Part shown: piece after piece, positions 7,645-46,745 of the stretch
How positions within the stretch are numbered: the first letter of the stretch is position 1
How the letters are laid out: each line of letters starts with the position of its first letter
Translations under genes and position numbers: made by a program
DNA from: Dactylorhiza incarnata
Taxonomy: Eukaryota; Streptophyta; Magnoliopsida; Asparagales; Orchidaceae
Length of the DNA: 64,000 nucleotides
Direction: 5' to 3'
Assembly (NCBI GenBank): GCA_033032865.1
Contig: JAWHQI010000258.1
Location: 3,968,001-4,032,000 of the forward strand
Notes under the pieces: model-generated
What the model saw: only the letters and a program-made list of their open reading frames with translations
Told to the model about the DNA's origin: nothing
Database searches by the model: none

Positions 7645-8477
7645 TCAATGCCACAACCTGCTGCAGAACCCCCTTTCCACTCCTGACTTTTTGTTATTGC
7701 AAATCCCATCCATAAAAGCGTCGGCCAACTGCGCCACCAGTCCTCCGGGATCGTCGATCAGGACGTGAATGAACGTGCTCACCACTCTCCGTTCCTGCTG
7801 CGTCGCCTTGAGGCTGAACCACGTCAAGAACTTCACCCTAAACTCCTTCTCCATGTGCCCCTCGCACTCCAGCCACCTGATCACCTTTACGCAATACTCG
7901 TAATCCCTCTCCGCCGATTCCTTCTTGTTCGCCGAGCCGGGAGCATCGAGAACTATGCTCGGCTTGCTCGGCGTTATAAATGCGCCGGCCTCCGGCACCA
8001 GGTGGCTCTCGTTGTTATCGACCTCATGCTTGTAGACTTTGATTGCGAGGTGATCATCGCTGGAGTTCGTCGAACCTCGCTGGGAATCAGTTTGGATGAT
8101 TACAGGCTGCTCGACGATCTCGTGTTCTTTCTTCAGGAACGACGAAATGCAGTTCAGGTCAGGCACCTTGGCGCCCGCGCCGCTATGGTTTTGGGTACAG
8201 CACTTGGACTCCCACCTGCCGAATTCCTTGGTGCTGCTGAATGGAGCTGCTCTGAAGAAATATTCAGTCGAAGGGCGGAGTCCCGATATCATGATCCTCG
8301 TCTCTGGCCGCAGAATGATGCAGGTCGGCTCTTCTGGATACTCAAATTCCTCAGAACCCCGATGCCAGAGTTTGCATCCTATGATATTCTCCTCGAAAAC
8401 TTCGTCTCTGGAACAAAGAGAGACGATGACGGAAGTTGGGGAGAGATCTTCGAATTGGATGCAGAAAACTTGAGAAC
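7645..8477 (-). CDS. VIN3-like (VEL family) protein, last coding exon: FNIII and VEL domains
   Basis: VIN3-like proteins bind Polycomb repressive complex 2 and help place H3K27me3 on target genes such as floral repressors. This 833-bp exon follows a CAG acceptor (8478-8480). It starts in phase with GSQVFCIQFEDLSPTSVIVS, the fibronectin type III domain, which continues through the ISGLRPSTEYFFRA region. After a charged linker comes the VEL (VID) domain: YEYCVKVIRWLECEGHMEKE, then FRVKFLTWFSLKATQQERRV. It ends GFCSRLWH followed by TGA at 7645, the usual ending of the family, so the C-terminus is intact. No frame breaks are seen. Which member of the family it is (VIN3, VIL1, VIL2 and so on) needs a tree. 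Confidence 0.93.
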
Positions 8478-8545
8478 CTGCAGTGACAAACAGTATAGAG
8501 ATCAGGTCGATTTTAGGCTTGAATGAGGCTGCAAAGAAAATGTAC

Positions 8546-8868
8546 CTGGGATATTTAGACCGGCACTGGCCATGAGGTCGAAGGAAGAAGAAAGCATGGA
8601 GTCCAGAGAATCCACGGCATAACCGCAAAGCTTCTGAATCTCGGCGCCGACGGTGAGCCGGTTGACGATGCCACGCGCCATCACGTTGGATACTCTATCG
8701 AGGGTTCCGACCTCTTTCTTGAGCTTCCTCACCGCCGCATTCACAATGTTGTGGAGTTGTTTGAAGCGTTCAGTTCCTTTAAGGATCTTGTCACTTAATG
8801 AGAGCCTCTCGCATAGCACATCAACCCTCCTCGCATCTTTCGCAATTATTAGCTGTTTTCGCCAGCTT
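8546..8868 (-). CDS. VIN3-like protein, middle exon (region between PHD and FNIII)
   Basis: This 323-bp exon lies between an acceptor (ATGCAG, intron side from 8869) and a donor (CCCAG then GTACAT, intron 8478-8545, 68 bp). It encodes WRKQLIIAKDARRVDVLCER, then LSLSDKILKGTERFKQLHN and MARGIVNRLTVGAEIQKLC, the conserved helical linker that follows the PHD finger in VIN3-like proteins. It enters in phase 2 and leaves in phase 1, matching the flanking exons exactly. The 68-bp intron is short but within the plant range. Confidence 0.93.
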
Positions 8869-9057
8869 CTGCATTTTATCCATTCAAATTATGAATTATA
8901 CATTAGACACAGAGACCATGAAATCAAACAGGAAATGAGACAGATATTTGCCTACTTGTAATCATGGGTTTCTGAACAAAGAAAGTTAGAAATTTTAACC
9001 ACAAAATTTTACTTCAAGTTCTCATAATCAATTTGATTTCTTGCTTACAAAAATCTT

Positions 9058-9450
9058 CATATGGTTTCTATTGATAATGAAAAGGCATATAATCGAGTGC
9101 CGCGAAAATTGATTTCACGTGCATTAAGGAAGAAAGGTGAGTTTGAAGTTATTAAAGATATGTATGACTGATGAGCATTAACTAATAGTACTACCTACTT
9201 CTAGAATGGTTAAAAATTTAAATCACAAAAGATTTACGCCAAGGATCGACATATCTAAGTCGTATTACTCATGGAGAAACTTGGAAAGATATCCAAAGTG
9301 AGGTGTCTTAGGGCATTATTTTGCATATGAAATCATTTTAATATGTGCGATGTCTCTTGAGACAAGTGAAAAATTAAAACAATGGAGACACTGTTTGGAA
9401 GATACAAGGTATCAAAATGGTAGAGCAAAGATTGTGTGCATTGTAATGCA
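9058..9450 (+). pseudogene. decayed LINE reverse transcriptase fragment
   Basis: The plus strand reads MVSIDNEKAYNRVPRKLISR and, after a shift, FEVIKDMYD. This matches the palm region FIDLEKAYDRVPRE ... VIKDMYTNS of the LINE at 19972-21256. Stops and shifts follow. It is an old RTE-clade fragment. Confidence 0.7.
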
Positions 9451-9456
9451 ACCTTA

Positions 9457-9679
9457 GGCTCTGTTTGGCGCGGCGTTTTTGCTCCGGTGAGTTTGGACAA
9501 AACACCACCGTCATAGAATGCATGTTTTTGGCATGAGAACGGTTGTAACCGCCACCAAGAAAAGAAAACTAGTTTTAAACATAAAAGTGAACATAGTTCC
9601 TTTGGTGAGGTCGTGCGTTCACGAACGGCGGTTCATAACCACCGCGTTCACGACCGCCACCACAGCGCCAAACAGAGCC
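9457..9679. mobile_element. Tourist-like (PIF/Harbinger) MITE
   Basis: Ends GGCTCTGTTTGGCGC and GCGCCAAACAGAGCC are perfect inverted repeats, flanked by TTA on both sides (9454-9456, 9680-9682). Size 223 bp, no coding capacity. A relative lies at 36122-36352. Confidence 0.85.
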
Positions 9680-10008
9680 TTAGTGGAAGAATTATAAATC
9701 TATCTTATTAGAAAACAAGAGGATCAGGTAGTCATAAAGTCAAGTTTGCTGCAACTAAGCAAGTCTAAAGAATGTGATAGGAGTGTTGATGATAAGGAGA
9801 CTCTATGGTCATAACAGTTTCTCTACTACTCAGAAAACCCTAAATCACCAAGTCAACACAATGAGTAAGGAAATAAAATTTCTTTTAATGAAGATGCCAG
9901 TCTGTGCTAGGAAGTCGTTAAATAACAAGGTGAAGCACAGCATCAGCCCAAAACCACTTGATATAAGGAATATGAAAAAGAATATAATTTCTTTTATTGT
10001 TCTTCTTT

Positions 10009-10187
10009 AGGAGCCTTGGCGCACCGGTTGAGGTGTTGCCGTGTGACCTTGAGGTCACGGTTTTGAGTCCTGGAAGCAGCCTCTTGCAAAAATGCAGGGT
10101 AAGGTTTGCCTACATTTCACCCTTGTGGTGGGATTCTCCGGACCCTCGCTACGCGGGGATGCTTCGTACACCGGGCTGCCCTCTTTT
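10009..10187 (+). mobile_element. Au-type tRNA-derived SINE
   Basis: The sequence GAGCCTTGGCGCACCGGTTG, the B-box region GGTTTTGAGTCCTGG, CAGCCTCTTGCAAAAATGCAG and the 3' part CACCGGGCTGCCCTCTTTT match the Au SINE family as I know it. A perfect 12-bp target duplication TTGTTCTTCTTT flanks it (9997-10008 and 10188-10199). It is close to full length, with several substitutions, for example in the A box. Confidence 0.9.
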
Positions 10188-10199
10188 TTGTTCTTCTTT

Positions 10200-11935
10200 C
10201 CTTCCCCTTGTTACCGTCTCTATTCAGGAAAAAAAATTCTACTAGCAGCCTAGTTTCAGCTTGTCACGGGATTTCTTCAACTTCAAGCATAAGATTACAA
10301 AAGCCCGTCTGAACAAGAACAGCCAATCTGCTCGGTTCCGGCCTTCGATGGCAACGGTCCTCTCCATGGAAGATGTCGTCAGGGTCATGCGGTTGACGAA
10401 GATTGTGGTTGTTCTTCACGATGCTCATGGTTGTTGCTTGAAGTGCGCCAAAATCTGGAACCGTGGATTTCGAGCGGTTTTGTCCGCGAGCCCGAACCAC
10501 GACTGCGGTCCTTCATTCTCACCTCGAGTTATCAACCGGCCTTTAGTCCATCCCTTTTGGTACATGCGTGCCTTTGTCGACCTAGTCTAGTGTTTCCTAG
10601 ACATCCGGTGCATTTTGTCTTCCACTCTGGAGTTCCAACAACTATTTTCGAAGGAAACAATGTGGGGTGGTCCAAAGGTTTGAGATTTTTTTTCCTCCGA
10701 CTCTTTTTACGATGGTTTTCCCTTTTATTTGGGTTGTACTGTTGTGTGTCTCATTTGTAAACTATCATGGATGTGCTAGAGAATTCAGGAAGTTCAAGTC
10801 AAATGGTAATGCCTAATGCTGGACAGGGTAGTTGGACTAATTTGGTCATGAACCCGTTAGGCCTCTGATCCGATTAGACCTGAAAACTAGTTAATCCATG
10901 AAACGCTTTAAAACCGACTAACTGGTTAAGCTGCCAAACCGTGAACCACCGCGGGTTTTTGAAAGCCCCGTGGTACAAACAACAGGTTTAATTTTATTTA
11001 TTTTTATTAAAACAAAGCAGCGTGGCGGACTAGATTCGAACAGGCGAGCAAGATTTTAATAAATTCCCTCATGGTTCCTTGTGCCAAAGCAGCAACTGTG
11101 AAAACTCTTGAGATATTTTACATATTATAATAATACATAGATAAAATATCTCCAAATATACAAACAGAAATCTATATAAATGTATATATGTACATACACA
11201 CACTATTAATAACTCAAACCTCCCGTGGGAGTTCGCATAATTATAGATTGCACCTCTATCTTTTGAAATTACAAAGACCTCTGTAAGTTTACATTTCATA
11301 GCATGTGTACTGCAACGATGAGCATGAAAAGATAAATCGTGTCTTCGAGTTTTAATGTTAAAGTTTAAGACATTATTAGTTTTCCTCCATCTAATTGAAG
11401 ATTTGGGATTTAGCATTGGATGTTATGCTAATTTCTTGCACATTTCGTTTCCCCTTCTTATAGCAGCAATGACTTCATTAGAGAGGCAGCTATTTTTAGT
11501 ATTATGGTAAAAAATGATCGTATTCTTACTCTTCTTATATCATCTTTCTAAAAAACTTTTAGTAATGTTTTTTTGGGGTGATTCCTATGGCTATGCCTTC
11601 TAAGATTCGGTGAAGCCTAATTTACTAAATGTGAAGATTCTCTTTAAATCTTTCTTTCTTTCCTTATTTATTCAAGATTGTGGAATGTCATGTGGTTCCA
11701 TGCGTATTTCCCTCTAAGCGAGTCTATGGATAGCAGTGTTAAAAATTGTTTGGAAAAAAGGAGCTTCATTTAGGTGTTCCTTTACATTTTGGATGAAAGA
11801 ACGTGAAGGGAGCTATTAATTAAAATTAACTCTTATAGCATGAACATGAAATAATGATGTAAAAGAAAACGTTTTAAATAATAAATGGTGCATCAATGCA
11901 TAAGGGCATTGTTAATGATTAACCCTGGAAGGGGG
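10200..11935. other. intron sequence with no recognised feature
   Basis: Open frames at 10261-10590 and on the minus strand at 11069-11416 have no family I recognise and look accidental. The rest is AT-rich. Confidence 0.4.
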
Positions 11936-12327
11936 TGTTACCGATCTGCAGGCGGAAGAGCCGTCGTGGCAAGTTTACACGCGAAGACCGCGGGAGCCGG
12001 AGGTGATTCATGGCGCGGGCGAACCGGGCGGTTCAGCGGAAGTGACTCACGGCACAGGAGGAAGTGAACCGGGCGGTTCAAGCTGAATTTATAATTCTGT
12101 TTATTTTAATTAAGTTTTTTGTTGTTGTATTGACCCCTCACTATAAGAGGGTAAACTTTGGTTTGGTTTGTCATCTTTGGATCAATTAAGTGAAAGGGGG
12201 TTGCTCCCTCTTATCTCCTTCCCTAACCCTAACTCCCTCTCTCTCTTATCTCTCTCTCCCCCCTTCGTTCCCTCCCCGACGGTCGGCTACCTCCCCCTTG
12301 CCGGAATCCGATACCGAGTAGGTATCA
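11936..12327 (+). repeat. 5' LTR of Ty3 element C
   Basis: 392 bp, TGTTACCGATCTG to GTAGGTATCA; contains a CT-rich stretch near 12230-12265. The bases just before it, GGAAGGGGG, look like a polypurine tract. Confidence 0.9.
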
Positions 12328-13740
12328 TTGGTCCGACCTCCGTCTCCGCCTGCACTACCGCCGCCGGACGTTACCTCGTGTGTGTCGATGGCTCCAAATA
12401 CACGACTCCACGCCGCCGAAGGCCTCGACGGGCTGGACGACACCCGCGCCCGACTGGACCACCACGACCACCGACTGCAAAAACTGCAGTCCTCCGTCGA
12501 CGCCCTCCTCGCCAGGCAATCACTCATACTCGGCCGACTCGACGCCCTCACGGCCCCGGCCGCCCACACACCATCGACGGGATTCACATCTTCTACTGAC
12601 ACGGGCTCGATTTTGGGGACACCACCGCAGCTGCTTCCCATCGCCCCCGCACCTACACCCGGGCATGCCGCCCCCACCTTGGACATCCCCTCCTTCTCCG
12701 GCGTCGATCCAATGGGCTGGATCGCGCGGAGCAGTTTTTTGACCTCAACCTCACCCCGTCGGCGGATCGAGTCAGCACGGCCGTGGTCGGTCTCGACGAC
12801 TCGGCTCTGCATTGGGCGTGTTGGCTCCGCCAAGTTCAGCCCGCAATCTCCTGGGGAGAGTTCAAGCAAGAGATGATCAGTCGTTATGATTCGCGCTACA
12901 CCGGCTCCGCCGTCGAGCGCCTCTGCAGTGCCCGCCAAACAACAACCGTGGATAGTTACATTGATGAGTTTGTAGCGCTCGTGACACAAGTTCCGGGCCT
13001 TCCGTCCGACCACTACTTGGGGTTCTTCCTTCAGGGGCTACTGCCCAATATCCGCTCCCGCATCCGACACACCATCCTCGAACGGTATCTGAGGCTTCGG
13101 AGCTTGCTCGTGCGGTGGAAGCAGATCTCGGCCCCCTCCACCTTCAACCCAGCGGCCACACCGCCACCCGCACTCAGGCCAACCGTGACTTGGCCCCACG
13201 GCTACTGTCGGGTGGGGGCGTTCGGCCGGGACGCGCTGCCCCCCCCCCCTTTCTCCAATAACAACTATAATGAACTTCGCCGCAAGGGATTGTGCTTCCG
13301 TTGCGGCCAACCCTATTCGGCGCACCAGGTATGTGCGGTAAAAGAGTTTCACGCCCTTTTCGGCGATTATGATCCCGAAATCACCATAGCGGATTTCGAC
13401 GACCTCGCTATACATGAGGATGCGCTTCCACCGGAGCTCAACGGCGCGGCCCTGCATATACTGGACCTTTCGTTCTATTCCGTGGGCGGCCTTACCGGGC
13501 CCCGGACGATGAAGATGACCGGAGTACTTCTCGCTCGGCCCGTGCTTGTGATGGTCGATAGTGGCGCCAGCCACAATTTTATTTCGGCACAATTGGCGCG
13601 TGACCTCAACCTCCCGATCTCACCGTCCCCAGATTTTTCCGTTTGCTTGGGAGATGGCCGCCGACGGCCGACCTTGGGGCAGTGCTTGGGGGTGACTCTC
13701 CGTCGGGTCGTGCACCCTCACGACGGATTTCTATGTGTTC
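12328..13740 (+). pseudogene. element C gag and protease (frameshifted)
   Basis: The first frame has a likely start at 12390 (MAPNTRLHAAEGLDGLDDT), a coiled N-terminal part and a proline-rich linker ending near LDIPSFSGVDPMGW (about 12725). A frameshift then moves the capsid-like part (WACWLRQVQPAISWGEFKQE, YIDEFVALVTQVPGLPSDHY) to another frame, which continues to the zinc knuckle CFRCGQPYSAHQVC (about 13298) and the aspartic protease motif VMVDSGASHNFIS (about 13552). Another shift near 13730 moves to the frame of VILGVAWLQTLGDVRVNW. Protein production would need at least two repairs. Confidence 0.85.
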
Positions 13741-15517
13741 GAATTGGGCGGCATCGACGTTATCTTGGGGGTGGCGTGGCTTCAAACCTTGGGGGATGTT
13801 CGTGTGAATTGGGTCACTATGACTATGCTCTTTCAGCACGCGGGCCTCCCTTGCCGTCTGGTGGGCGATTCGGCTCTTCTACGGTCACCAGTCTCATTTC
13901 GAGCTCTCACTCGAGTAACGGACGTGAATTTTTCAGCCTGGCTATGGCCCTACAGCCAGAGCACCGCTTACGTACCACTAGCCGCCGATCTTCAGCACCT
14001 CCTCGAGGACTTCCCGGATATTTTTATTGCACCACAGGGCCTTCCACCGGTACGGCCGACAGACCACCTGATTGTGCTTCAGCCAGGTGCGGCGGCAGTT
14101 TCTGTCCACCCCTACCATTACAAGCACGCTCAGAAAGACAAGATCGAACGCCTTGTGCAGGAGATGTTGTTGGGCGGCCTCATTCGACTTAGTGCTAGCC
14201 CGTTCTCCAGCCCGGTCCTATTGGTTCGAAAAAAAGACGGGAGTTGGCGTTTTTGTGTTGACTACCGAGAGCTCAACAAAGTCACGGTTTCGGATAACTA
14301 TCATATTCCGGTAATTCAGGAACTCTTGGATGAACTTCACGACGCCGCCTACTTCACGAAGTTGGACCGTCTCTCGAAGTATGCACACTTCATTCCTCTC
14401 CGCCACCCGTACACGGCCGCTACCGTGGCCGACAGCTTCATCGCCGAGATCGTGCGGCTACATGAATTCCCTCGTTCTATCGTGAGCGACCGCGACCCTC
14501 TATTCCTCAGCAGCTTTTGGACCTGCCTTTTCGGCTATAGGGCATGTGGCTCCGTATGAGTACGGCCTATCACCCGCAGTCAGACGGGCAATCCGAAGTA
14601 CTCAATCGATGTTTAGAGACGTATCTTCGTTGTTTCATCGGCGAGCGGCCAGGCACTTGGGCCAAATGGCTGTGTTTGGTGGACTACTCTTATAACACAG
14701 CCTATCATCATGCGGCAAATACCTCACCTTTGGAGACAGTTTATGGTCGCCCGCCACCGTCGGTGGTCCGCCACCTCCTGGGGGAGTGCCCAGTGGCCAG
14801 TTTGGCCGACCATTTCCAGGATCGCGACATCATCGTCTATAGTTTAAAGCACCATCTTCAACGGGCCCAGGCAAAGATGGTATCCTTTGCCAACCGGAAG
14901 CGTCGGGATCTCTCCTTCCAAGTAGGGGAGAAGGTTTTTCTCAAGCTCCATCCATACCGCCAGCTCACCGTCGCGCGGCGGCCGTGCCCGAAGTTGGCAC
15001 CGTGTTTCTACGGGCCCTTTGAAGTCATAAGGCGCATCGGGGCCGTGGCGTACCGGCTTCGTTTGCCCAGCAGCAGCCGCATCCACCCGGTTTTTCACGT
15101 TTCACAGCATCGACGGGTGGTAGGCGATCACCCCGTCGTAGACCATATTTCGGCCGACCTCGACTATTCAAGTTCCGAACCGTTGTACCCCGAGGCTATC
15201 GTCGGTCGTCGGCATCACTTACCCGGGATGCCCACCCAGAAGAGATCCGCGTCGCATGGCGCCACCGTTCGACCAACGACGCTACATGGTTACTTCAAGA
15301 TTATTTTCGCCGACAGTTCTCGGACTACTGCATTGAGGACAAGACCGATTTTCCAGATGGCGGTATTGTTACAGATCTGCAGGAGGAAGAACTGTCGTGG
15401 CAAGTTTACACGCGAAGACCGCGGGAGCCGGAGGTGATTCATGGCGCGGGCGAACCAGGGGATTCGGCGGAAGTGACTCACAGCGCAGGAGGAAGTGAAC
15501 CGGGCAGTTCAGGCTGA
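13735..15517 (+). pseudogene. element C: RT start fused in frame to integrase, with chromodomain-like tail
   Basis: The frame has the RT N-terminal motifs SPFSSPVLLVRKKDGSWRFC and VDYRELNKVTV, reaches AAYFTKLD near 14370, and then reads RLSKYAHFIPLRHPYTAATV, which is integrase core. The RT catalytic region, RNase H and the integrase zinc domain are absent. Later integrase motifs (SDRDPLF, STAYHPQSDGQSEVLNR) are present, with a frameshift near 14540. A shift near 15235 leads into a tail (TWLLQDYFRRQFSDYCIEDK) that reads through the LTR start to a TGA at 15515-15517. Confidence 0.85.
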
Positions 15518-15758
15518 ATTTATATTTCTGTTTATTTTAATTAAGTTTTTTATTGTTGTATTGACCCCTCACTATAAGAGGGTAAACTTTGGTTTGGTTT
15601 GTCATCTTTGGATCAATTAAGTGAAAGGGGGTTGCTCCCTCTTATCTCCTTCCCTAACCCTAACTCCCTCTCTCTCTTCTCTCTCTCTCTCCCCCTTCGT
15701 TCCCTCCCCGACGGCCGGCTACCACCCCTCGCCGGAATCCGATACCGAGTAGGTATCA
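15367..15758 (+). repeat. 3' LTR of Ty3 element C
   Basis: 392 bp, same length as the left LTR, about 95% identical by eye. The last pol codons overlap its first 150 bases. Confidence 0.9.
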
Positions 15759-16754
15759 TGGTGTGAATTTCCTGTCACTATGAAGAATTTGATTCAAGTG
15801 TTCTGATTGAACTTCGTGCTCGATGATAGCCCTGGAACGAAAAGAATGCGAGCGTGCTAGAAAAGTGTGAAATGGGCTCATAATGAATGAATGAAAAGAT
15901 GAAATGTATCTTTAACATTGTCCGATGAAGAAGATACATCTAATGATAAGTTTAAAAATACTAAATAAAGGAAATGATCAAACGGCCAAACTAATACGTA
16001 AAATCATCCTTATTGGTATATACTCATATGAATATTGTATTATACCCTATAAACAAATATAAAGTAGTTTAATTTTAATGTACTTCATATTAATGGTAGC
16101 AAGAATGAATTTGGTACCCAGAAATCTCAACACTTTAATGAATTAAAGTTGTGACTAGAACTCGAAGACATGATTAAATGCAACCTCTAACATCATGTTG
16201 TGTTTTAGTTAAACACAACATAGTTTTGAACTCTAACGTAGTTTAACTATGTTGTTTCGGTATCACTAAGGAGAAGAGTCTTCCTTACTCATCAATTGGT
16301 TGACCCCGTCTTCGGACTTTTCTTTACAAGAAACATAGGTCGGTAGATCCGTTTAGGATGATCTTACAAAGATTTTGATGCAATCTTACGTTACGTCATG
16401 TCTTTTATTTTCGAACATCATACATGTTCTGGATTTACACTTTGGTAGTTATGTACCAAGTTATGTATCTGACATTGACTTTTAATTTCAGCATTCAATT
16501 TTAATTATGTTTTCCATTTAATTGGCTTTGTGATTCAAATTATTGAGATATTCCTTTATCATTGGCTCCATTTTTTTATTTCTGTTGTGCACTTTTGTCA
16601 CTTTTACTGTCTTTTTGTTACTATACCAATTTTTATATCATTGCTTAGTTTGCTCATATCACGAGTGTCGGTCGAGCTTCTGGTAGTTGATCTCTGAATA
16701 TTCTAAATGTTAATTTTGGCTCTCAAAAGATATTCTTCTTGTACATGTATTACT
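15759..16754. other. AT-rich intron sequence
   Basis: No open frame or repeat that I recognise. It may include unrecognisable 5' parts of element D. Confidence 0.4.
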
Positions 16755-17431: not shown

Positions 17432-17511
17432 TTTGAGATCAGTGTGACTACCCGTGCTAGTGATGGTTCTGAGATCTTAAGTTGGATAGAAATTAAGTGT
17501 GACAAAAACAT

Positions 17512-17859: not shown

Positions 17860-17963
17860 TAATGACAAAAGATAGAATAAGGCATGCTTTACCACAAGAT
17901 TTGAAATTGTCAAAATTTGGGAGTTGAGAAAAGCAAGGCAAAGGGAGAACTTTACAATTTAGA

Positions 17964-18545: not shown

Positions 18546-18549
18546 GAGC

Positions 18550-19001: not shown

Positions 19002-19009
19002 GACAGAGC

Positions 19010-37004: not shown

Positions 37005-37375
37005 CCGCCTCGCTCCTTCTCGTCCTTCCTCCGGCGACCCCTCTCCTGCACGCTCGTCTCCTCCTCGCTCGACTCCTCCTCGCCTGCGTCTGTCGCGCGC
37101 GTTCGCCTGGACTTGTCGCTCCCGCATTGTCCGCGCCCCACCTAGCCACTCGTCGTGCGATCCTTCTTCTCTGTCGCACCCGATCGGGCTGCTGGCTTCT
37201 TTGGCCTAGCTTGTCGCCGGCGCCCGACCTAGCCGCTTCCAGCCGGCCGTTTTGTCATCCATGGGGACTGCCGGAGACACCGCCCTCACATCCTCCGGTG
37301 TTCTCTTCGGCTTTCAGATCTAAGGGGCACCTGTAGGATGTTTCTTTAACTCTTTTGTGATATCTTCGTTCCCCA

Positions 37376-39391
37376 ATGGATGATCCATCCGATGTCTCCC
37401 CTTCCTCTCAATCCGGTTCTCTTCCCGGTTCCTCCGCTCCCCGATCCGGTGCTTTGCCCGGTTCCTCGGGTGATCCTCCTCGGAGTCATGGCCAGTCTGG
37501 CTCATTGAAGATTACTACTGTTGCCTTGGATGGCACAAATTATCTGGAATGGTCACGGGCGGCCCAGCATGCTATTCGCAGCCACCAGTTATATGGACTT
37601 ATTGATGGTACCACTACTGAACCACCACGCACCGATCCCTCATGGCGCAAATGGGATGCGGACAATTCGTTAGTCGTCTCGTGGTTACTTCATTCGATGT
37701 CTCCTCAGGTGTATCGGAGTTATATGATGTTGGACTCCGCCTATGATATTTGGACACGGGCCCGTGATACTTACTCTCAGGCGGGCAGTTCGATGCAAGT
37801 GTACGAGCTCACTCGCCGTGTTCTGGAACTGAAGCAGGGGACTATGACCATTGCCGCCTACTATTCTGAGTTTGAGCGTCTTTATCAAGAGCTCGATTTC
37901 TTCAATACTTTCGCTGCTGCTTGTACGGTTGATGCGGTGGCCCTTCAGAAAGCTAACGATCGATTCCGGGTTCACGTGTTTCTTATGGGGCTCAACATGG
38001 AGTTTGACGTTGTTCGCCTACACGTCCTCCATCGTGAGCCGCTTCCCTCTCTTCGGGAGGCCTTCAGAATGCTCCTCAGTAATGAGAATCGTCGTCGCAC
38101 TCTCGACCCCGCTACTGATCACTCTGCGCTGGCTGGGATGTCGCGCGGACCCCCTCCTGTCTGTAGTTATTGTGGGAAGACTGGCCATATCAAGAACTCT
38201 TGTTTCCGCCTGCATCCGCACCTTGCCCCTGGTGGCCGGGGCTCCAGTACCCGTGGTAGAGGTGGGCACCGTGGTAGTGGTGGTCGTCACTCTGGTGATC
38301 GCTCTCATTCTTCTGCACATTCTACTGAGGTTCTGGAGGACACCTCTGGAGGCATGTCTGCCTGTGAATTGGAGGCCTTTCGACGCATGTTGCGCTCCCA
38401 CGCAGATTCTGCTCCTGCTGCTTCTCATGCTGTTGTTGCCACTTCAGGCCTGTCCAGTGCTAATGCCGTGTCTTCCCCTCCTTCCGAGTGGATTATCGAC
38501 TCAGGTGCAACCGACCACATGACTGGTTCTGCTTCAGGTTTTACCTCCTATACCCCCCTTTCTGGTCGTGATAAGGTTATTGCTGCTAATGGCTCTCTCT
38601 CTTCCATCGCTGGAAAAGGGACTGTCCCTTGTTCTCCTGACCTATCACTGTCCTCAGTTTTGCATGTTCCCTCTTTTCCCCGTAATTTACTTTCTATTAG
38701 TCATTTGACTAACTCTTTACACTGTTCCGTGACATTCTTTCCTGATGTTTGTGTGTTTCAGGATCTGGGTACGAGGCGGACGCTTGGCAGTGGTAGGAAT
38801 GTTGGCGGACTGTACTTGCTGAACCAGTCTTCACCCAGTGCTCTCTCTTCCACCAGATCTCCGACTCTTCATGACATCCGACGCTGGCATCAACGCCTTG
38901 GCCACCCTTCTCCTTTGTATCTTACTAAGTTGTTTCCTGTTTTTCATCCGTTAATTCAGTCATTCTCTTGTGATGCGTGTGAACAGTCTAAACATGTCCG
39001 TCGGAGTACGAGTCATTTATCTGTCCCTAGTCTATGTCCTTTTGATGTTATTCACTCTGATGTTTGGGGCCCGTCCACAGTGTTATCTTTATCTGGCTAT
39101 AAATGGTTTGTTACGTTTATTGATTGTCACTCCCGCACTACGTGGCCTTATTTGCTTAAAAGGAAAAGTGATGTGTTTTCTTGTTTTCAAACGTTTCATA
39201 AGCTGGTGACCCAGCAATTTGGCGGAAAAATCTGTGTGCTTCGTAGTGATAATGGTGGGGAATATGACGACCGGGGTGTTTTTGGGGCCTATCTCGCCGA
39301 CCATGGCATTATACATCAAACCACGTGCGTCCACACTTCCACTCAAAATGGGGTGGCTGAGAGGTGGCCCGGTGTTTACTCCTTGCTATGA
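37376..39391 (+). CDS. copia I Gag, protease and integrase core
   Basis: 671 codons from ATG 37376. Order: copia gag (LDGTNYLEWSRAAQHAIRSH near residue 50; ELKQGTMTIAAYYSEFERLY near 155), zinc knuckle CSYCGKTGHIKNSC (near 262), protease WIIDSGATDHMTGSA (near 370), pre-integrase zinc region WHQRLGHPSP...CDACEQSKH (near 500-545), integrase core with HSDVWGP and LRSDNGGEYDD. A loss of about 20 bases right after QNGVAER shifts the frame and ends the product at LL. It is otherwise free of stops. Confidence 0.9.
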   Translation: MDDPSDVSPSSQSGSLPGSSAPRSGALPGSSGDPPRSHGQSGSLKITTVALDGTNYLEWSRAAQHAIRSHQLYGLIDGTTTEPPRTDPSWRKWDADNSLVVSWLLHSMSPQVYRSYMMLDSAYDIWTRARDTYSQAGSSMQVYELTRRVLELKQGTMTIAAYYSEFERLYQELDFFNTFAAACTVDAVALQKANDRFRVHVFLMGLNMEFDVVRLHVLHREPLPSLREAFRMLLSNENRRRTLDPATDHSALAGMSRGPPPVCSYCGKTGHIKNSCFRLHPHLAPGGRGSSTRGRGGHRGSGGRHSGDRSHSSAHSTEVLEDTSGGMSACELEAFRRMLRSHADSAPAASHAVVATSGLSSANAVSSPPSEWIIDSGATDHMTGSASGFTSYTPLSGRDKVIAANGSLSSIAGKGTVPCSPDLSLSSVLHVPSFPRNLLSISHLTNSLHCSVTFFPDVCVFQDLGTRRTLGSGRNVGGLYLLNQSSPSALSSTRSPTLHDIRRWHQRLGHPSPLYLTKLFPVFHPLIQSFSCDACEQSKHVRRSTSHLSVPSLCPFDVIHSDVWGPSTVLSLSGYKWFVTFIDCHSRTTWPYLLKRKSDVFSCFQTFHKLVTQQFGGKICVLRSDNGGEYDDRGVFGAYLADHGIIHQTTCVHTSTQNGVAERWPGVYSLL

Positions 39392-41664
39392 ACCTTCCTA
39401 AATCCTACTGGGGTGATGCAGTCCTCACTGCTGCTCATCTCATCAACCGCCTTCTGTCTCGTGCTCTCTCTTTTGATACGCCCCTCTCATGTCTTGCCAA
39501 AAACCACATTGTCCATACTTCTCATCTTGCCCCTCGTATATTCGGCTCCGTGTGCTTTGTCCACGTCCATACCCCGCAGCGTGATAAACTCTATGCGCGT
39601 TCCCTGCGGTGTGTTTTTGTTGGTTACTCTCCTACCACCAAAGGGTATCGATGTTATCACCCTCCGACTCGTCGCTACTATTGCACTGTGGATATTACTT
39701 TTTGTGAGGGGGAGTCATACTTTGGTCCTCGTCAGGGGGAGACGACCGGCAATGGTGACGAGACCATCGATTCTCCTCTTCCTATTGTCCATTATCCTCT
39801 TCCTGCCATTGATCCTCCCACTCCTTCCACTTCTCCTATCCCTTCCACTGCTCTTGTTCCTTCCACCTCCGCTCCACCTATACTATACACATACTCCCGT
39901 CGTCCTACGACTGTTGAGCAAGTGCAGACTGAGGATGTTCCGCCAGTGCCAGTGACTGTCCCCGCACCAGATTCTGATGAAGACCTCCATGTTCCTCTTG
40001 CCCGTCTTATAGGTAAAAAGGGTGGCACCAAACACCTAATTGCCAACTACATTTGCTATGATCACCTCTCTCAGGCCCATAAAGCCTTTATCTCTTCTCT
40101 CTCATCTATTGTGATTCCTAAGACTTGGCAGGAGGCTGTTCAAACACCTGAGTGGAAAAAGGCAATGGAGGAGGAACTGTGTGCCTTGGATAAAAATAAG
40201 ACATGGCGGCTTGCTAGTCTTCCCCCTGGGAAGCGAACGGTTGGATCCCGCTGGGTCTTCACAGTTAAACAAAATCAAGATGGAGTGGTGGAGCGGTACA
40301 AGGCTCGTCTGGTGGCTCAGGGATATACCCAAGCTCAGGGCATTGACTACCAGGAGACATTTGCTCCTGTTGCAAAGATGAACTCAATTCGTGTGCTTCT
40401 CTCCTGTGCTGCGAGTCGTAAATGGGAGCTACTACAACTTGATATCAAGAATGCATTCTTGAATGGTGATCTGGAAGAGGAAGTTTACATGGATCTCCCC
40501 CCGGGCTCTGTGATCAAAGGGTCCAAAGGGAAGGTTTGCCACCTTCTTAAATCCCTGTACGGCCTGAAGCAGTCTCCAAGAGCGTGGTTCGGACGCTTTT
40601 ACAAGACCATGCTTCAACTTGGATACACTCAAAGTCAAGCTGATCATACTCTCTTTATCAAGAGGAAGGGTGCTCAGGTTTCTATTCTTATTGTGTATGT
40701 GGATGACATCATCATCACCGGAGACTACTTGGAGGAGATCAATCACTTGAAAAAACAGCTAGGCAAAGAATTTGAAGTCAAGGACTTGGGAAAGCTGAAA
40801 TACTTCTTGGGAATTGAAGTTGCGAGGTCTCAACGTGGGATCTTCATTTCTCAAAGGAAGTATACTCTTGACCTTCTTGAGGAGACTGGGATGCTTGGGT
40901 GTGCCCCCGTGGACACCCCTATTGAGGCTAATCACAAAATTGATGCAGATATTAGTGGGGAGAAAGTGGATGCCTCAAAATACCAACGTCTGGTTGGACG
41001 CCTTATATACTTGTCTCATACCTGTCCTGACATCACATATGTTGTGGGAGTCCTAAGCAGGTATATGCATTCTCCCTCCATACGTCATCAGCAGGCTGCC
41101 TTCAGGGTGTTACGTTACCTCAAGAAGGCACCAGGTCGTGGGATTCTATTCAAAAACAGTCAGTCATTGGAAGTTGAAGTGTTCACAGATGCTGATTGGG
41201 CTGGTAGTCAAGACGATAGAAAGTCTACCACTGGGTACTGCACATTTGTAGGAGGTAACCTGGTCTCATGGAAGAGCAAGAAGCAGAATGTGGTAGCTCG
41301 CTCAAGTGCGGAAGCTGAATATAGGGCTATGGCCCAAGGCGTTTGTGAGGGGCTGTGGTTGAAGACTATCCTTCGTGATATAGGCCTTCAGGGGGACACT
41401 CCTATTATGATCTACTGTGACAACAAGGCGGCTATCAGTATTGCACGCAATCCAGTACAGCATGACAGAACCAAACATGTGGAAGTCGACCGACATTTCT
41501 TCAAGGATCACCTTGACAAGGGGAATATTTGCACTCCTTTTGTGAACTCATTTGATCAGCTTGCTGATGTCTTCACCAAGGGTCTATGCAGCGACAACTT
41601 CAAGGACAATACTGACAAGTTGGGAATGATCAATATATATTCCCAACTTGAGGGGGAGAGTTGA
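39364..41664 (+). CDS. copia I integrase end, reverse transcriptase and RNase H
   Basis: 766 codons open. Starts in the integrase C-terminal part (MNLPKSYWGDAVLTAAHLIN; CVFVGYSPTTKGYRCYHPPT), then a Pro/Thr-rich linker, RT (SRWVFTVKQNQDGVVERYKA; KSLYGLKQSPRAWFGRFYK; catalytic YVDDIIITG near residue 444) and RNase H (FTDADWAGSQDDRKSTTGYC; SSAEAEYRAM; YCDNKAAISIARNPVQHDRT), ending NIYSQLEGES. All catalytic motifs are present, unlike every other copia copy in the window. There is no ATG at its very start; it needs the upstream frame, so it is a broken half of one polyprotein. Confidence 0.9.
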   Translation: MARCLLLAMNLPKSYWGDAVLTAAHLINRLLSRALSFDTPLSCLAKNHIVHTSHLAPRIFGSVCFVHVHTPQRDKLYARSLRCVFVGYSPTTKGYRCYHPPTRRYYCTVDITFCEGESYFGPRQGETTGNGDETIDSPLPIVHYPLPAIDPPTPSTSPIPSTALVPSTSAPPILYTYSRRPTTVEQVQTEDVPPVPVTVPAPDSDEDLHVPLARLIGKKGGTKHLIANYICYDHLSQAHKAFISSLSSIVIPKTWQEAVQTPEWKKAMEEELCALDKNKTWRLASLPPGKRTVGSRWVFTVKQNQDGVVERYKARLVAQGYTQAQGIDYQETFAPVAKMNSIRVLLSCAASRKWELLQLDIKNAFLNGDLEEEVYMDLPPGSVIKGSKGKVCHLLKSLYGLKQSPRAWFGRFYKTMLQLGYTQSQADHTLFIKRKGAQVSILIVYVDDIIITGDYLEEINHLKKQLGKEFEVKDLGKLKYFLGIEVARSQRGIFISQRKYTLDLLEETGMLGCAPVDTPIEANHKIDADISGEKVDASKYQRLVGRLIYLSHTCPDITYVVGVLSRYMHSPSIRHQQAAFRVLRYLKKAPGRGILFKNSQSLEVEVFTDADWAGSQDDRKSTTGYCTFVGGNLVSWKSKKQNVVARSSAEAEYRAMAQGVCEGLWLKTILRDIGLQGDTPIMIYCDNKAAISIARNPVQHDRTKHVEVDRHFFKDHLDKGNICTPFVNSFDQLADVFTKGLCSDNFKDNTDKLGMINIYSQLEGES

Positions 41665-41790
41665 ATATTCGCCTTTTTATCCGCATTTATCTAATACACG
41701 TGATATGTCACGTGTATATCTCCTATATATGTATCTTATTTGCCCGGTTTAGGGCACCAGTTCAATACGATCGATCGCTTTCTACTGGGA

Positions 41791-42779
41791 TTTCGTCAAA
41801 TCTAGGTTCAAGTTATTGGCTCTATCACATTAAAAAAATTCTCCAAGTATGGGCCAAGTTATGGGCTCCATCGCACCAAGAAATTCCACCAATTTGCAGT
41901 CAAGCTGCAGGGTCTGTCGCGTCAGAAAATTGTCAAGTCCAAAGTCGAGCTGCAGGCTCTATCACGTCAAAAAATTCTATTCTAAGGCCAAGTTGCACAA
42001 AATATCGCCCTAAAAATTCCTCTAATATTGTCAAGCCGAAGTTGCAGACTTTGTTATGAAATTACTTCATGTACCCATTTTCTGAGAGTTTTGAATTTCA
42101 CATAAATATAGAATTTTGTCGATGTGCCCAAAGATCCTATAGACTTTCACCCTGATCCTAAACCAGTTTGAATTCACGACATCCAATCTACTATCACAAC
42201 TCCTAAACTAAGAAATTCTCTAGCGCACTCTAAGCCAATTAGGGCGAAAGTAATGAGGGTGAAAACCCCCTTTATTAGTCTAGGGAGGGGATATCATGCT
42301 AAAGTTCACCAACTTTCCTAAGAGAAAGTTCTGACACACTGGCATAGCTGGCCAGTATAATTGGACGAAAGTAATGAGGGTGAAAACCCCCATTATTACT
42401 CTAGGGAGGGGATATCATGCTAAAGTTCACCAACATTCCTGAGCGAAAGTTCCGACACACTGGCATAGCTGGCCAGTATGAGAGGGGGGGCAATTGTGAT
42501 GTGTCATGCTAGAAAAATGAAAGTTCTCTTATCAGGCCAAAACTTTTATGAAATTTTTATCTAGTCTCTGCAAGTCCGATGGTGGTGGTTTATCGATAAA
42601 ATCGGGATTTGAATTTCATCAAGCAGTTGAGAAGAAATTGATTCCGAAAAATTTCAAATTGTACGAACCAAGGAACCTATAGTTTTCCCCTCGAATCAGG
42701 AAATGTGTCCAGGGTGTGCCCATGAATAGTTTTGCCATTATTTATATGGATCATTCCGTTGAAAAACAAGCGCTTGTCA
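41791..42779. other. repeat-rich intron sequence
   Basis: From 41790 to about 42010 there are four or so degenerate copies of a unit near 55 bp (words like GGCTCTATCACRTYAAAAAATT). A 121-bp tandem duplication follows at 42241-42482. No gene is recognised. Confidence 0.55.
42241..42482 (+). repeat. 121-bp tandem duplication
   Basis: CGAAAGTAATGAGGGTGAAA occurs at 42245 and 42366; copies end with ACTGGCATAGCTGGCCAGTA. They differ at few positions. Confidence 0.85.
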
Positions 42780-43563
42780 TCGCAGCAGGCCCGACGAACA
42801 CTGCGAAAACAACACGCGAGCACGAGAGGCCGCAGCAGGCTCGGTGAACACGGCGAACACAGCACGTGAACACGACGAGCTCAGCAGTCACAACACGCGA
42901 ACACAGCGGACAGCGCGCGAGAGGCCGCAGGAGGTGCGGTCGCAGGATGTTGCGGTCTCAGCGAGGAAGCCACAGGAGGAGGAGCTGCAACTGGCGGGGA
43001 GAGCGCAGGTGCGAAAGCGAAGGCCGCAAAGTACACGCGCGCAAGTTCGAAATTAAAGACACAAGCGGGCTCGGGAGGAGAGGCCGCAAGATGGTGGGCG
43101 AGCGCGGGTACGAGAGCAAGGCCGTAAGCGGAACGGAGCTGGCGGTCAGAAAAAAGACAACACGCGAAAAATCCTGCGGAAAATACGCAGGTCAGACAGA
43201 GCATATAAAAGGACTCGAAGGACCACACAATTGAGAGGGGGCGGGAACGAAAAAGGAGAGTTGTGGTCACAAAGAGAGTCCACACGAGGAGATGCGAGAG
43301 CAGGGCTCAATTGCTAAAAAAACGTTCTGCAGAAACGCGTTCCTCTGTTACCATGTAAAAAAACACTAAATGGAAAGGGAAAATAGAAATACTTTATTAT
43401 TCCTTGTCAGGAAGTGTAATTACAACAACAGTACACACAAATATTTTTAGAGAGGATGAGTGGAGACCCAACTTCATCCTATGATGTGGGACTAAATATT
43501 AAACATAAAAAATGGGTCCTTCAATGGGCTATTGGATGGGCCCTTTATACAACTTATTTTAAC
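42780..43563 (-). mobile_element. copia remnant K: 5' LTR, primer site and GC-rich leader
   Basis: A 210-bp LTR (43354-43563, TGTAAAAAAAC to TTATTTTAACA on the plus strand) adjoins a primer site whose minus strand is TGGTAACAGAG (43343-43353). The leader (42780-43342) has repeated GCGAACACAGC- and GGCCGCAGGAG-type words like the leaders of copia A and B. No gag or pol follows; the element stops near 42780. Confidence 0.75.
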
Positions 43564-43581
43564 AAAAATCACTATCTTAAC

Positions 43582-45020
43582 TGATGCGGCACAGGCGTCA
43601 CACCTGCCCGCCACCCAGGAGTCCCACCAGGGGGCCCACCTTGGAGTCCACCAAGGCGACTTTATCAGGGATGCAGCCCATACACCCCAACCCGTCTCCG
43701 CCATGGAGTCACCACCATGCAGCGGGTTGTTGAGGCTCGGGATCGAACACCCGACCTCCTTGATGAGCATTCATCACCAAGTCTCATCACCAACTGATGG
43801 GGTGTATGGATTGCAGCCCTGATAAAGCCGTCTTGGTGGACTCCAAGGTGGGACTCCAGGGTGGCGGGCAGGTGTGACGCTTGTGCCGCATCATAAAAGT
43901 GCACTTTTATGATGCAGGACAGGCGTCACACCTGCCTGCCACCCTGGCATCACCACCAGGGGGCCTCCTTGGCATCCCACCAAGGAGGGTTTCATCAGGG
44001 TTGCAGCCCATACACCCTAACCATCTCTCCGCCTCCCATCACCAGGGAACGGTAGGTTGTTGAGGCCCGGGATCGAACACCTGACTTCCTAGATAAGAGT
44101 CTTTCACCAGAGCTCTCATCACCAGCTACAGCTCAGTTGGTGATGAGAGCTCTGGTGAAAGACACTTATCTAGGAGGTCGGGTGTTCGATCACGGGCCTC
44201 AACAACCTACCGTTTCCTAGTGATGGGAGGCGGAGAGCTGGTTGAGGTGTATGGGTTGCAGCCCTGATGAAAGTCGCCTTGGTGGGATGCCAGGGTGGGC
44301 TCCCTGGTGGTGATGACAGGGTGGCAGGCAGGTGTGACGTCTGTCCGGCATCAGCTCAGTTGTTGATGCGAGTGCTGGTGAAGGCCTCTTATCTAGGAGG
44401 TCGGGTGTTCGATCTCGAGCCTCAACAACCCGCCTCATGGTGGTGACTCCATGGCGGAGACGGGTTGGGGTGTACGGGCTGCAACCCTGATGAAAGCCGC
44501 ACAGGTGGACTCCTGGGTGGGCCCCCTGGTGGGACTCCAGGGTGGCGGGCATGTATGACTTTTATGATGCAGGACAGGCGTCACACCTGCCTGCCACCCT
44601 GGAGTCCCACCAGGGGGCACACCCAGGAGTCCACCTGGGCAGCGGCTTTCATCAGGTTACAGCCCGTACACCCCAACTCGTCTCCGCCATGGAGTCACCA
44701 CCATGCGGTGGATTTTTGAGGTTCGGGATCGAACACCCGACCTCCTAGATAAGAGGCATTCACCAGTACTCTCATCACCAAGTGCAGATCAATTGGTGAT
44801 GAGAACGTTGGTGAAGGCCTCTTATCTAGTAGGTTGGGTGTTCGATCCCGAGCCTCAAGGCCCTCAACAACCTGCCGCATGGTGGTGACTCCATGGCGGA
44901 GGCGGGTTGGGGTGTACGAGCTGCAGCCCTGATTAAAGCCGCCCAGGTGGACTCCTGGGTGGGCCCCTTGGTGGGACTCCAGGGTGGCAGGCAGGTGTGA
45001 CGCATGTCCTGCATCATTAA
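43582..45020. mobile_element. cluster of seven tRNA-derived SINE copies in alternating orientation
   Basis: Units of about 220 bp: minus 43582-43797, plus (3' half only) 43798-43901, minus 43902-44125, plus 44128-44351, plus 44352-44552, minus 44553-44786, plus 44787-45020. Each full plus-strand unit has an A-box-like AGCTCAGTTGGTGATGAGAG, a B-box GGTCGGGTGTTCGATCCCG about 50 bp later, then a tRNA-unrelated body ending GGCAGGTGTGACGCCTGTCC and TGCATCATAAAAGT. The A and B boxes and T-arm-like sequence indicate origin from a tRNA and transcription by RNA polymerase III. I do not recognise the family; it is not the Au type at 10009. Confidence 0.8.
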
Positions 45021-45540
45021 CATTCATGGCTACTGTGATGTGGATTGGACTAGATCTACGTCTAATAGAGAATCTATGAGTGAGTATTCTATCCTTGCTA
45101 GAGGGAATTTAGTCTTCTGGAGGAGTAAAGAAAACATAATATGGTTGTTTGATCTTATGATGAAGTTGAGCATAAGGTCATGGCTATTACTACTTGTGAG
45201 CTAAAATTTTGGATCAAATCCTATCTTGGTAAAAATGGGCTTCTGTGTTGAAGTAACCATGCAATTATATTGTGATAACCATGTTGCTAGTCACATAGCT
45301 ATAATCCAGTGTTTCATGAATGGATCAAACATATAGAAAATAATTGTCACTTTGTGTGAGAGAAAATTCAAAACAAAATTATCTCTACCTCATTTATTTC
45401 CTCTAATGCTCAATTGGAAGATACATACCAAAGTCGTGTATGAAAAAACTCTTTACTTGAGTTCTCTCATGCTTGGAATGGTGGATATCTATGGTGTTCT
45501 CTTGAGGAGGGGTGTTGAAAATCAAGCTCAGTGCTTCCCA
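45021..45540 (+). pseudogene. decayed copia RNase H and element end
   Basis: Starts GYCDVDWTRSTSNRESMSEY and FWRSKENI, then YCDNHVASHIAIIQCFMN, in broken frames; ends near LGMVDIYGVLLRRGV, the end of copia pol. It begins exactly where the SINE cluster stops. Confidence 0.7.
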
Positions 45541-45553
45541 TTCTTCTAGCAGC

Positions 45554-45685
45554 TCTTCATTCATCGAGTGGATCTTCATTCGTCGAGCGGGTCTTCCTTC
45601 ACCAAGTGGGTCTTCACTCGTTAAGCAGGTCTTCATTTGTGGAGCGGTGTTCACTCGTTGAGCAAGTCTTCATTCGTCAAGCAGG
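45554..45685 (+). repeat. 19-bp tandem repeat, seven copies
   Basis: Unit TCTTCATTCGTCGAGCGGG with variation in each copy; 132 bp in total. Confidence 0.75.
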
Positions 45686-46072
45686 ATGATGTTAAAAGTG
45701 GGCAAGCATATCTCCGGTCGGGTTAATCATGCGTGCGCCAGAATATCACCAAAAGGTTAGATCATCCATTAAACAGATTCACCAAACTTGGCTTCTAAGG
45801 TAAATATTGTGTCATTCAATTTCTTCCACATGAAAGCTATATTATAACTTCAAAATAAACACATTTTGTGAGTTTAACTAATTATACAATCATAGCTAGG
45901 TTGCTCAGATTGTTAAAAATAATAAAAACTCACGGTAAGTACATAATGAATATATATATATACAACCCGCCTTCCTAATATTATTTCCCGAGGGCATGTA
46001 TCAAGTATTAAACCAAAGAGGAGGAACAATGCTTATTCACTTCATAAAAATGAGTAAAAAGACGGTTATTAC

Positions 46073-46745
46073 CCTATAAGCCAATTGATCTTCCCACAAT
46101 AAACACAGTAGAAGCTTCCATCTAACTTCTGAGAGCACCCACTCTTCAGAATGCCAGCTTTCTCATGCTTGAGTGCACATTTGAGGTGACAGGACACACC
46201 ACATGAATCACCACAATATGGAGGATCAGAGTTGCAAACCAACCACAGACTAGGATCCTTGTTGTCATCATACTGATAGCAGATGCAGCAAGAACATCGC
46301 TTACAATATGCATCTGGCCGACTCAAAGTCGCACTGCACGCAAGATTTTGACAGACGCGATTATAGGTATTGGCTTCTTTAGCTTCGTTGGACTGATCAG
46401 AGTGCATATCATTTCCAGCTCGTAGTGGTTGCTCTTTTTTTCTCTTCTTTTTAGTTCCATTTTGACATTTCAGTGAGCTAGAAGAAATGCTAGATTTATT
46501 GCTACTATGTTTACTGTTCTTTTGTGATACCAGCCTGAGAAGATGCTCAATCATTTTAGGCTTTGTCACACCGGTATATTTCCTGTCCTTGCCCATCTCT
46601 GCACATATAAGCTGAAGAAGTTCCCGACGGGTCCATGACTGAAGAATTTCAGGGGCATTGTCAGCCCAACGTGAAATTTCATGCACTAGCTCTCGCTTCT
46701 CCTCCAAACTTAGCTCATTGCATTTTGCGGGATCTATCACGAAGC
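46073..46745 (-). CDS. VIN3-like protein, exon with N-terminal region and atypical PHD finger
   Basis: This 673-bp exon follows a CAG acceptor (46746-46748) and opens in phase with [20 protein letters not shown]. Next come [20 protein letters not shown] and [20 protein letters not shown], the conserved N-terminal segment of VIN3-like proteins, and a basic stretch KKKRKKE likely to be a nuclear signal. The Cys/His-rich PHD-type region runs from [20 protein letters not shown] through [19 protein letters not shown] and [17 protein letters not shown] to [10 protein letters not shown]. The exon ends in phase 2 at a GTAATA donor. It joins 8546-8868 across 37.2 kb. No ATG in this frame lies near the start, so a short upstream coding exon must exist. 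Confidence 0.93.

Follow-up and report, generated by a model that had tools for sequence, protein, structure and literature searches.

A VIN3-like gene with retrotransposon-stretched introns in the orchid Dactylorhiza incarnata

Introduction

Does a 37.2-kb intron full of transposons act as an epigenetic switch when it splits a VIN3-like Polycomb gene, or is it a tolerated by-product of genome growth? We analyzed the 64,000-nt stretch of Dactylorhiza incarnata DNA that carries such a gene (here called the window). The initial annotation had joined three exons into one gene, in frame at GT-AG sites and with an intact stop codon, and had reported conservation across the gap. It had also proposed that premature polyadenylation in the intron gives a PHD-only protein, creating an epigenetic feedback switch.

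Results

Gene structure

The VIN3-like gene lies on the minus strand, and its exons were located where they had first been placed. Exon 2 (46745-46073) encodes residues 1-223 and part of residue 224 of 608, comprising the N-terminal region, the zinc finger and the PHD finger. It is identified by its open phase, its flanking AG and GT, the Pfam PHD_Oberon match and the alignment with 7qce. Exon 3 (8868-8546) encodes the four-helix bundle of the PHD superdomain and is placed by frame, splice sites and the 7qce alignment. Exon 4 (8477-7645) encodes the FN3 region, the linker, the VEL domain and the stop codon, as judged by frame, splice sites, Pfam and the 7qce alignment. Both complete introns are GT-AG introns: intron 2 (8869-46072) has 37,204 bp and intron 3 (8478-8545) has 68 bp. 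For exons 2-4, GT was found at both donors (2/2) and AG at all acceptors (3/3). When joined, these exons are open in one of the three phases: 608 codons run uninterrupted to a stop codon that ends at 7645.

Exon 2 starts in phase 2 and is preceded by AG. Orchid homologues begin with MESIFSG or MESNFSG, and in close relatives exon 1 encodes MESIFS-G. Thus a short exon 1 must exist, and the gene has at least four coding exons. The three exons of the initial annotation are correct, but the model was incomplete, with exon 1 and a large intron 1 overlooked. Searching both strands of the window for MESIFS-G followed by GT, as a degenerate pattern with up to 3 mismatches, gave 0 matches compared with 0.30 expected. 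A wider minus-strand scan looked for ATG followed by five codons ahead of GGT or GGC. It returned 29 candidates across the window, and the 3 upstream of exon 2 all had negative similarity scores. A second scan upstream of exon 2 found no IFS-G-GT-like endings. We assume that exon 1 lies past 64000, unless greater divergence or a different split put it out of reach of these scans. With exon 1 not found in the window, the minus-strand intron 1 (46746-64000 in part) has at least 17,255 bp.

Protein domains

Pfam PHD_Oberon matched residues 131-249 (E 3e-33), which span the junction of the 37.2-kb intron near residue 224. The solved VIN3 sequence 7qce aligned over residues 121-321, on both sides of the same junction (E 3e-101). 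Together with the relative P0001 described below, these matches bear out the conservation noted on either side of the gap. The conserved arginines of the PHD superdomain, a quartet described previously (PMC9640981), are all present (237, 238, 289 and 294, all in exon 3). In the compared 98-residue stretch, 16 of 18 Cys/His residues are kept, and the coconut protein P0006 departs at the remaining two as well. VIN3_C was matched with E 3e-18, and the C-terminal VEL polymerisation domain is matched by five distinct solved VEL-domain sequences. Fn3_VIN3 was matched with E 8e-7 at 30.0 bits, under the curated cut-off of 33.9; full-length VIN3-like proteins from orchids align across the FN3 region. 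From its sequence, the gene appears to be a member of the VEL/VIN3-like family. VEL proteins are reported to act with PRC2 and H3K27me3, and PRC2 association of the orchid protein is predicted from its family.

Relatives and gene tree

One closely related protein, P0001, has 615 residues and lies on a contig of 2,228 bases. It aligns over 608/608 residues with 0 gaps and 96% identity, and 7 + 608 residues give exactly its length. The 26 differences in 608 residues are spread as follows: 1/88 in the VEL domain, 6/201 in the PHD superdomain, 4/120 in the N-terminal region, 6/109 in the FN3 region and 9/90 in the linker. Judged by the size of its contig, P0001 would be the spliced transcript of a close relative, although an intronless copy would look alike. 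P0004, on a 201-Mb contig of Platanthera zijinensis, holds the PHD and VEL parts within a single protein. As deposited, P0004 is without most of FN3 and without the C-terminal part of VEL, which may reflect either a lesion in Platanthera zijinensis or an annotation fault. Users of gene annotations should be warned that the deposited protein of this orthologue is incomplete.

A gene tree was built from 41 rows, the window gene and 40 proteins chosen from 120 returned. A seven-row orchid clade was recovered at 100/100, as was the group of the window gene, P0001 and P0004. Support was weaker at the Vanilla fork (92/87) and for the pairing of the window gene with P0004 (86/54). The end branch of the window gene is only 0.0046. 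Such a short branch inside the orchid clade, next to P0001 and Platanthera zijinensis, makes the gene look like a maintained orthologue of orchid VIN3-like 2.

Transposons in intron 2

As the initial annotation had stated, intron 2 is rich in transposons. The spans assigned to elements and relics sum to 21,760 bp, or to 23,216 bp when an unclassified repeat cluster is counted with them. This cluster holds direct and inverted repeats (43568-45023). Because gaps between relics are counted in these spans and the cluster is unclassified, we give the transposon share as about 58-62%.

Four features lie on the plus strand, antisense to the gene. The Gypsy-type element at 11936-15759 retains gag, protease and the integrase SH3 domain and has an LTR K2P of 0.048. 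Gypsy-type relics at 16988-19557 preserve RNase H and an integrase zinc-binding domain, and this stretch also holds a tandem duplication of 211 bp. In the Copia-type element at 22324-25520 (LTR K2P 0.021), only gag, a zinc knuckle and Pol_BBD were found. A long Copia-type coding region at 37361-41664 encodes gag, integrase and reverse transcriptase, and no LTR pair was found for it.

Three features are on the minus strand, sense to the gene. A non-LTR reverse transcriptase relic at 20208-21330, which we take to be LINE-like, contains RVT_1 in 20524-21330 (E 9e-32). The Copia-type element at 26329-30630 has 172-bp LTRs with K2P 0.080 and might supply poly(A) sites in the sense direction. Copia-type relics at 34460-36899 contain RVT_2 in 36504-36899, and their 34460-35296 part is 66% similar to the Copia coding sequence 41665-40820. 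Among the three intron-2 LTR pairs, target duplications were not found for 11936-15759 and 26329-30630, and none was convincing for 22324-25520.

Six-frame searches of three stretches of intron 2, 8869-11935, 30631-34459 and 41665-43567, revealed no nested host gene at E 0.01. The only hits in these three stretches were Dimer_Tnp_hAT and DUF1751, two overlapping matches in one frame, both under curated cut-offs.

Intron 1 and other features of the window

Transposons have enlarged intron 1 too, where two nested LTR elements were found. The outer element (47030-62477) has LTRs of about 1.1 kb and a candidate 5-bp target duplication, AGGCC. Nested in its 3' LTR is a plus-strand Gypsy-type element (51998-61560) with 2.0-kb LTRs and the target duplication CCCGA.

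Of the 30 window ORFs chosen for Pfam scans, 12 remained unmatched, and Rfam at the gathering score gave no match in the whole window. A small inverted-repeat element at 4774-5637 carries an ORF that may resemble the start of exportin-T/PAUSED. This likeness was not confirmed by Pfam or among 7,989 scored database candidates (E limit 1e-3, with a length limit that excluded full-length exportins). The PDB returned one chance match (E 0.96). A comparison of the element with plasmid records was empty, that collection being uninformative for a plant.

Discussion

The evidence gives good support to one VIN3-like gene across the 37.2-kb intron. Very probably, it is a single orthologous VEL gene with enlarged introns and a full-length product, and the orchid that carries it is close to Platanthera. 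Successive retrotransposon insertions would have enlarged introns 1 and 2, the datable ones within roughly the last few million years. A pre-mRNA of more than 56 kb would be transcribed throughout and spliced to a full-length Polycomb accessory protein, and the big intron would be a tolerated by-product of genome growth. By analogy with other plants, avoiding early polyadenylation probably needs general IBM2/EDM2-type machinery. Expression in Dactylorhiza incarnata and heterochromatin on the intron are likewise what we would expect. The locus offers a clean case in which strong transposon growth of the introns has left a developmental chromatin gene intact. As a test locus, it could help to show how silenced repeats tens of kilobases long are transcribed in plants.

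With two transposon-filled introns, VEL dosage might also come to depend on factors for heterochromatin read-through. In orchids, DNA methylation would then be coupled to Polycomb memory, in that direction only. We regard this as very unlikely. If it were true, a loss of silencing across the genome, as under stress, in tissue culture or after hybridisation, would lower Polycomb accessory activity via early polyadenylation. The locus would link DNA methylation to Polycomb memory only if the intron were proved to control isoforms.

In a heterochromatin-sensing switch, methylation of the 37-kb intron would set the ratio of full-length to early-terminated mRNA, and VEL dosage would report the silencing state as in IBM1. 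There are precedents. Read-through of heterochromatic introns is reported for Arabidopsis and rice, and rice osibm2 is described as showing premature polyadenylation in such introns. A methylated intron sets long versus short isoforms of IBM1, and its methylation is reported in many flowering plants, including a 27.2-kb cacao intron. In our gene, the sense-oriented elements of intron 2 (26.3-30.6, 20.2-21.3 and 34.5-36.9 kb) could supply poly(A) sites. Read-through past the exon 2 donor meets two stop codons immediately in frame, so the PHD-only product is formally possible. This product would end right after the PHD finger, without the four-helix bundle, FN3 and VEL. Since the truncation falls inside the compact ZnF-PHD-four-helix-bundle superdomain and FN3 and VEL are lost, it would most likely be non-functional. 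As a point against instability, a minimal Arabidopsis PHD fragment is reported to be soluble in E. coli; the same fragment is described as not binding the H3 tail. Early termination in intron 1, itself large and transposon-filled, would yield no PHD product. The published IBM1 loop closes because IBM1 removes H3K9me2, the very mark that it senses, whereas the partners described for VEL proteins are PRC2 and H3K27me3, so no direct feedback loop is implied. Moreover, the datable insertions are young, which makes an old conserved switch built on them unlikely, and other orchid genes are described with similar anatomy. We found no sign of the proposed feedback switch in the sequence. It is also weakened by the reported frequency of such introns in orchids and other large plant genomes, by the lack of an implied direct loop, by the nature of the short product and by the size and content of intron 1. 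We consider it very improbable.

Insertions could instead have split the locus into two transcription units, with exon 2 as a PHD-only gene and exons 3 and 4 as a truncated four-helix-bundle/FN3/VEL gene. The 37 kb of transposons in between fit this arrangement, and their LTRs could provide promoters and terminators. However, the splice sites flanking the gap are undamaged, the codon phase is preserved, and the junction falls within a compact domain. Differences from P0001 are few ahead of the big intron (7/224) and beyond it (19/384), and the transcript-sized contig of this close relative encodes the joined protein. We therefore give separate units very little credence. A recently dead gene or an assembly artefact is extremely unlikely: the datable insertions are recent (LTR K2P 0.019-0.080), so decay might not show yet, but the joined frame has no stop or frameshift, the arginines and most Cys/His residues are retained, the window contains zero N, and the same parts stand together in P0004, on a different contig.

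Comparison with known systems

The single gene with enlarged introns resembles the VEL (VIN3/VRN5/VEL1) family of PRC2 accessory proteins, with the ZnF-PHD-four-helix-bundle superdomain, FN3 region and VEL domain in identical order. In the tree it falls among monocot proteins that carry the name VIN3-like protein 2, and nothing in the orchid protein is strikingly different except that the FN3 score is under the Pfam cut-off.

Long introns are a published orchid feature, and transposon-filled ones are reported to occur widely, both in orchids and in other plants with large genomes; 72-73% LTR is reported for Platanthera genomes. In the orchid SPL and PEPC genes, Ginkgo and Chloranthus, as reported, exons are also conserved while introns have grown through transposons. 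The only difference we see is that the host gene here is a Polycomb accessory factor. A literature search, judged on titles and the start of abstracts, found no publication on a VIN3-like intron in orchids. The VIN3-like gene with its retrotransposon-stretched introns is an instance of a common trait of large orchid genomes.

In oil palm, a similar case concerns the gene MANTLED and the transposon Karma. Methylation of the intronic transposon of this fruit gene is reported to affect poly(A) sites (PMC10241880). Both are monocot developmental genes with an intronic transposon, but the methylation change with a known effect is that of oil palm. In the IBM1 sensor of the IBM2/EDM2/AIPP1 pathway, too, an intron that carries repeats separates coding exons of a chromatin regulator. 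In contrast to IBM1, which is described as erasing the mark it senses, VEL proteins are tied to PRC2 and not to H3K9me2.

Results

The exon groups on either side of the 37.2-kb intron form one reading frame. Three exons of the VIN3-like (VEL family) gene were placed on the minus strand of the window (64,000 bases, 0 N) by splice sites and open frame: exon 2 at 46745-46073, exon 3 at 8868-8546 and exon 4 at 8477-7645. All five splice sites visible in the window are canonical (three AG and two GT). The joined exons give 608 stop-free codons in one phase, with many stops in the other two. Intron 2 (8869-46072; 37,204 bp) lies near residue 224 of this frame, and its junction falls inside both the Pfam PHD_Oberon match (residues 131-249) and the alignment to 7qce, a solved VIN3 sequence (residues 121-321, E 3e-101). 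The three-exon arrangement proposed in the initial annotation is thus real, and chance is excluded.

Exon 2 starts in phase 2 immediately after its acceptor, and the orchid homologues P0001-P0005 from the protein database search all begin with MESIFSG or MESNFSG. A short upstream exon 1, ending with the first base of the glycine codon, is therefore required. The 615 residues of P0001 are exactly 7 + 608. No MESIFSG/MESNFSG-like exon was found within the 64,000-base window, so intron 1 spans at least 46746-64000 (17,255 bp). The initial annotation had described a single transposon-filled intron. Intron 2 is such an intron, but exon 1 had been missed and intron 1 is transposon-filled as well; the gene therefore exceeds 56 kb and has two big introns of this kind.

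Intron 1 holds an outer LTR element of 15.4 kb (47030-62477), for which AGGCC is the candidate duplication. A Gypsy-type element of 9.6 kb (51998-61560; duplication CCCGA) is inserted in the 3' LTR of this outer element. Inside the outer element, a 44-bp minisatellite (49659-51335; 38 copies, 96% matches) adjoins an 81-bp minisatellite (48974-49614; 8 copies). A 45-bp G+C-rich tandem repeat occurs in both LTRs of one element, with 7.4 copies (47248-47583) versus 3.8 (61750-61921).

Assigned spans, which take in short gaps between relics, cover 23,216 of the 37,204 bp of intron 2 (62%), or 21,760 bp (58%) without an unclassified cluster at 43568-45023, whose direct and inverted repeats are 72-94% alike. 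A Copia element (26.3-30.6 kb), a non-LTR reverse transcriptase relic (20.2-21.3 kb) and Copia relics (34.5-36.9 kb) lie in gene sense. All others are antisense to the gene or were assigned no orientation; they include a Gypsy element (11.9-15.8 kb), Gypsy relics (17.0-19.6 kb), a reduced Copia element (22.3-25.5 kb) and a long Copia coding region (37.4-41.7 kb). A convincing target duplication was sought for the three LTR pairs of intron 2 and not found. One LTR of the reduced Copia element carries a perfect (CT) run of 27.5 units (22593-22647); the tandem repeat search listed none in its partner.

Downstream of the gene, Copia-type relics occur on the minus strand at 1-3893 too (integrase core, SH3 domain and a reverse-transcriptase-like stretch), so the neighbourhood as a whole is transposon-rich. 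Inverted repeats of 122 bp, 96% alike (4774-4894 and 5516-5637), enclose roughly 620 bases, in which an ORF lies on the plus strand (5077-5502), and 4774-5637 resembles a small TIR element with a captured gene piece. A possible likeness of the ORF to exportin-T received no confirmation from Pfam, the protein database or PDB.

The protein database search with the window protein returned 1,044 proteins, of which 120 were listed. The best match among these 120, P0001 (615 residues, 96% identity, full coverage), lies on a 2,228-base contig. Because 1,848 coding bases on this contig leave no space for such introns, we infer that P0001 is the spliced transcript of a close relative; the contig could alternatively be an intronless copy. 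The window frame aligns with this presumed transcript over 608 of 608 residues with no gaps. The 26 differences comprise 1 of 88 residues in the C-terminal VEL domain, 6/201 in the PHD superdomain (zinc finger, PHD and four-helix bundle), 4/120 in the N-terminal part, 6/109 in the FN3 region and 9/90 in the linker.

P0004, VIN3-like protein 2 of Platanthera zijinensis, lies on a 201-Mb contig. The multiple alignment puts its identity to the window protein at 95.7% across 490 aligned residues, and the database search at 97% across 55% of the query. In its deposited form P0004 is missing most of FN3 as well as the C-terminal part of VEL, and its last residues are EVIR; this may be either an annotation fault or a true lesion in Platanthera zijinensis.

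A tree was made of 41 proteins, the window protein and 40 chosen from the 120 listed matches. The window protein, P0001 and P0004 are grouped (100/100) within a seven-row orchid clade (100/100), and the pairing of the window protein with P0004 is weak (86/54). Apostasia branches first, then Vanilla (92/87), then Dendrobium plus Phalaenopsis beside the window's group, an order that matches orchid relationships. The source of the window is a Platanthera-like orchid. The window's end branch is 0.0046 and thus gives no sign of relaxed constraint.

Discussion

Most likely, transcription runs through both introns and splicing yields a normal VEL protein. In rice, 5,809 heterochromatic introns are reported in 4,227 gene models (~11% of rice gene models), and loss of OsIBM2 leads to premature polyadenylation in such introns (PMC7145194). 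In Arabidopsis, IBM2 and EDM2 are described as suppressing cryptic poly(A) sites within intragenic transposons (PMC10241880). By analogy, OsIBM2/IBM2/EDM2-type machinery would be expected to act at this gene. The three sense elements of intron 2 are the likeliest candidate origins of early poly(A) sites.

Reading on from exon 2 into intron 2 gives a stop directly after the last PHD codons. A product terminated there would lack the four-helix bundle, whose four conserved arginines are encoded by exon 3, together with FN3 and VEL. Zinc finger, PHD and four-helix bundle are described as a single compact superdomain that does not bind histone H3, and a fragment without the last two helices was suspected to be partly unfolded; the minimal Arabidopsis PHD fragment was soluble, yet bound no H3 tail (PMC9640981). 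For VRN5, PRC2 association is reported to be enhanced by superdomain, FN3 and linker, VEL being dispensable for it (PMC7615239). By these findings, the PHD-only product would most likely be non-functional, not necessarily unstable.

Long introns are an already described orchid feature, of which this gene is a further example. A three-column table gives mean orchid intron lengths of 2.6-2.9 kb (PMC6230949), and for P. equestris and D. catenatum, gene length has been attributed to long introns (PMC7416622). Longer introns are reported for orchid PEPC genes (PMC10888551); half of the orchid SPL genes have introns >10 kb, and for one subfamily that paper gives an "intron length" of more than 40 kb (PMC10298685). 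The two sequenced Platanthera genomes are reported to measure ~4.2 Gb; repeats make up 77-82% of them and LTR elements 72-73% (PMC9023349). Beyond orchids, 16,939 introns over 20 kb are reported in Ginkgo (PMC5118899), and Chloranthus genes with LTR-filled long introns are described as more highly expressed until the introns exceed 40 kb (PMC8626473).

The epigenetic feedback switch proposed in the initial annotation is a conjecture with a low prior. The model intronic epigenetic switch is IBM1, in which the mark sensed is the mark removed; in cacao, the IBM1 intron is as long as 27.2 kb (PMC11265718). Repeats within an intron are the one feature that IBM1 and the VIN3-like gene are shown to have in common.
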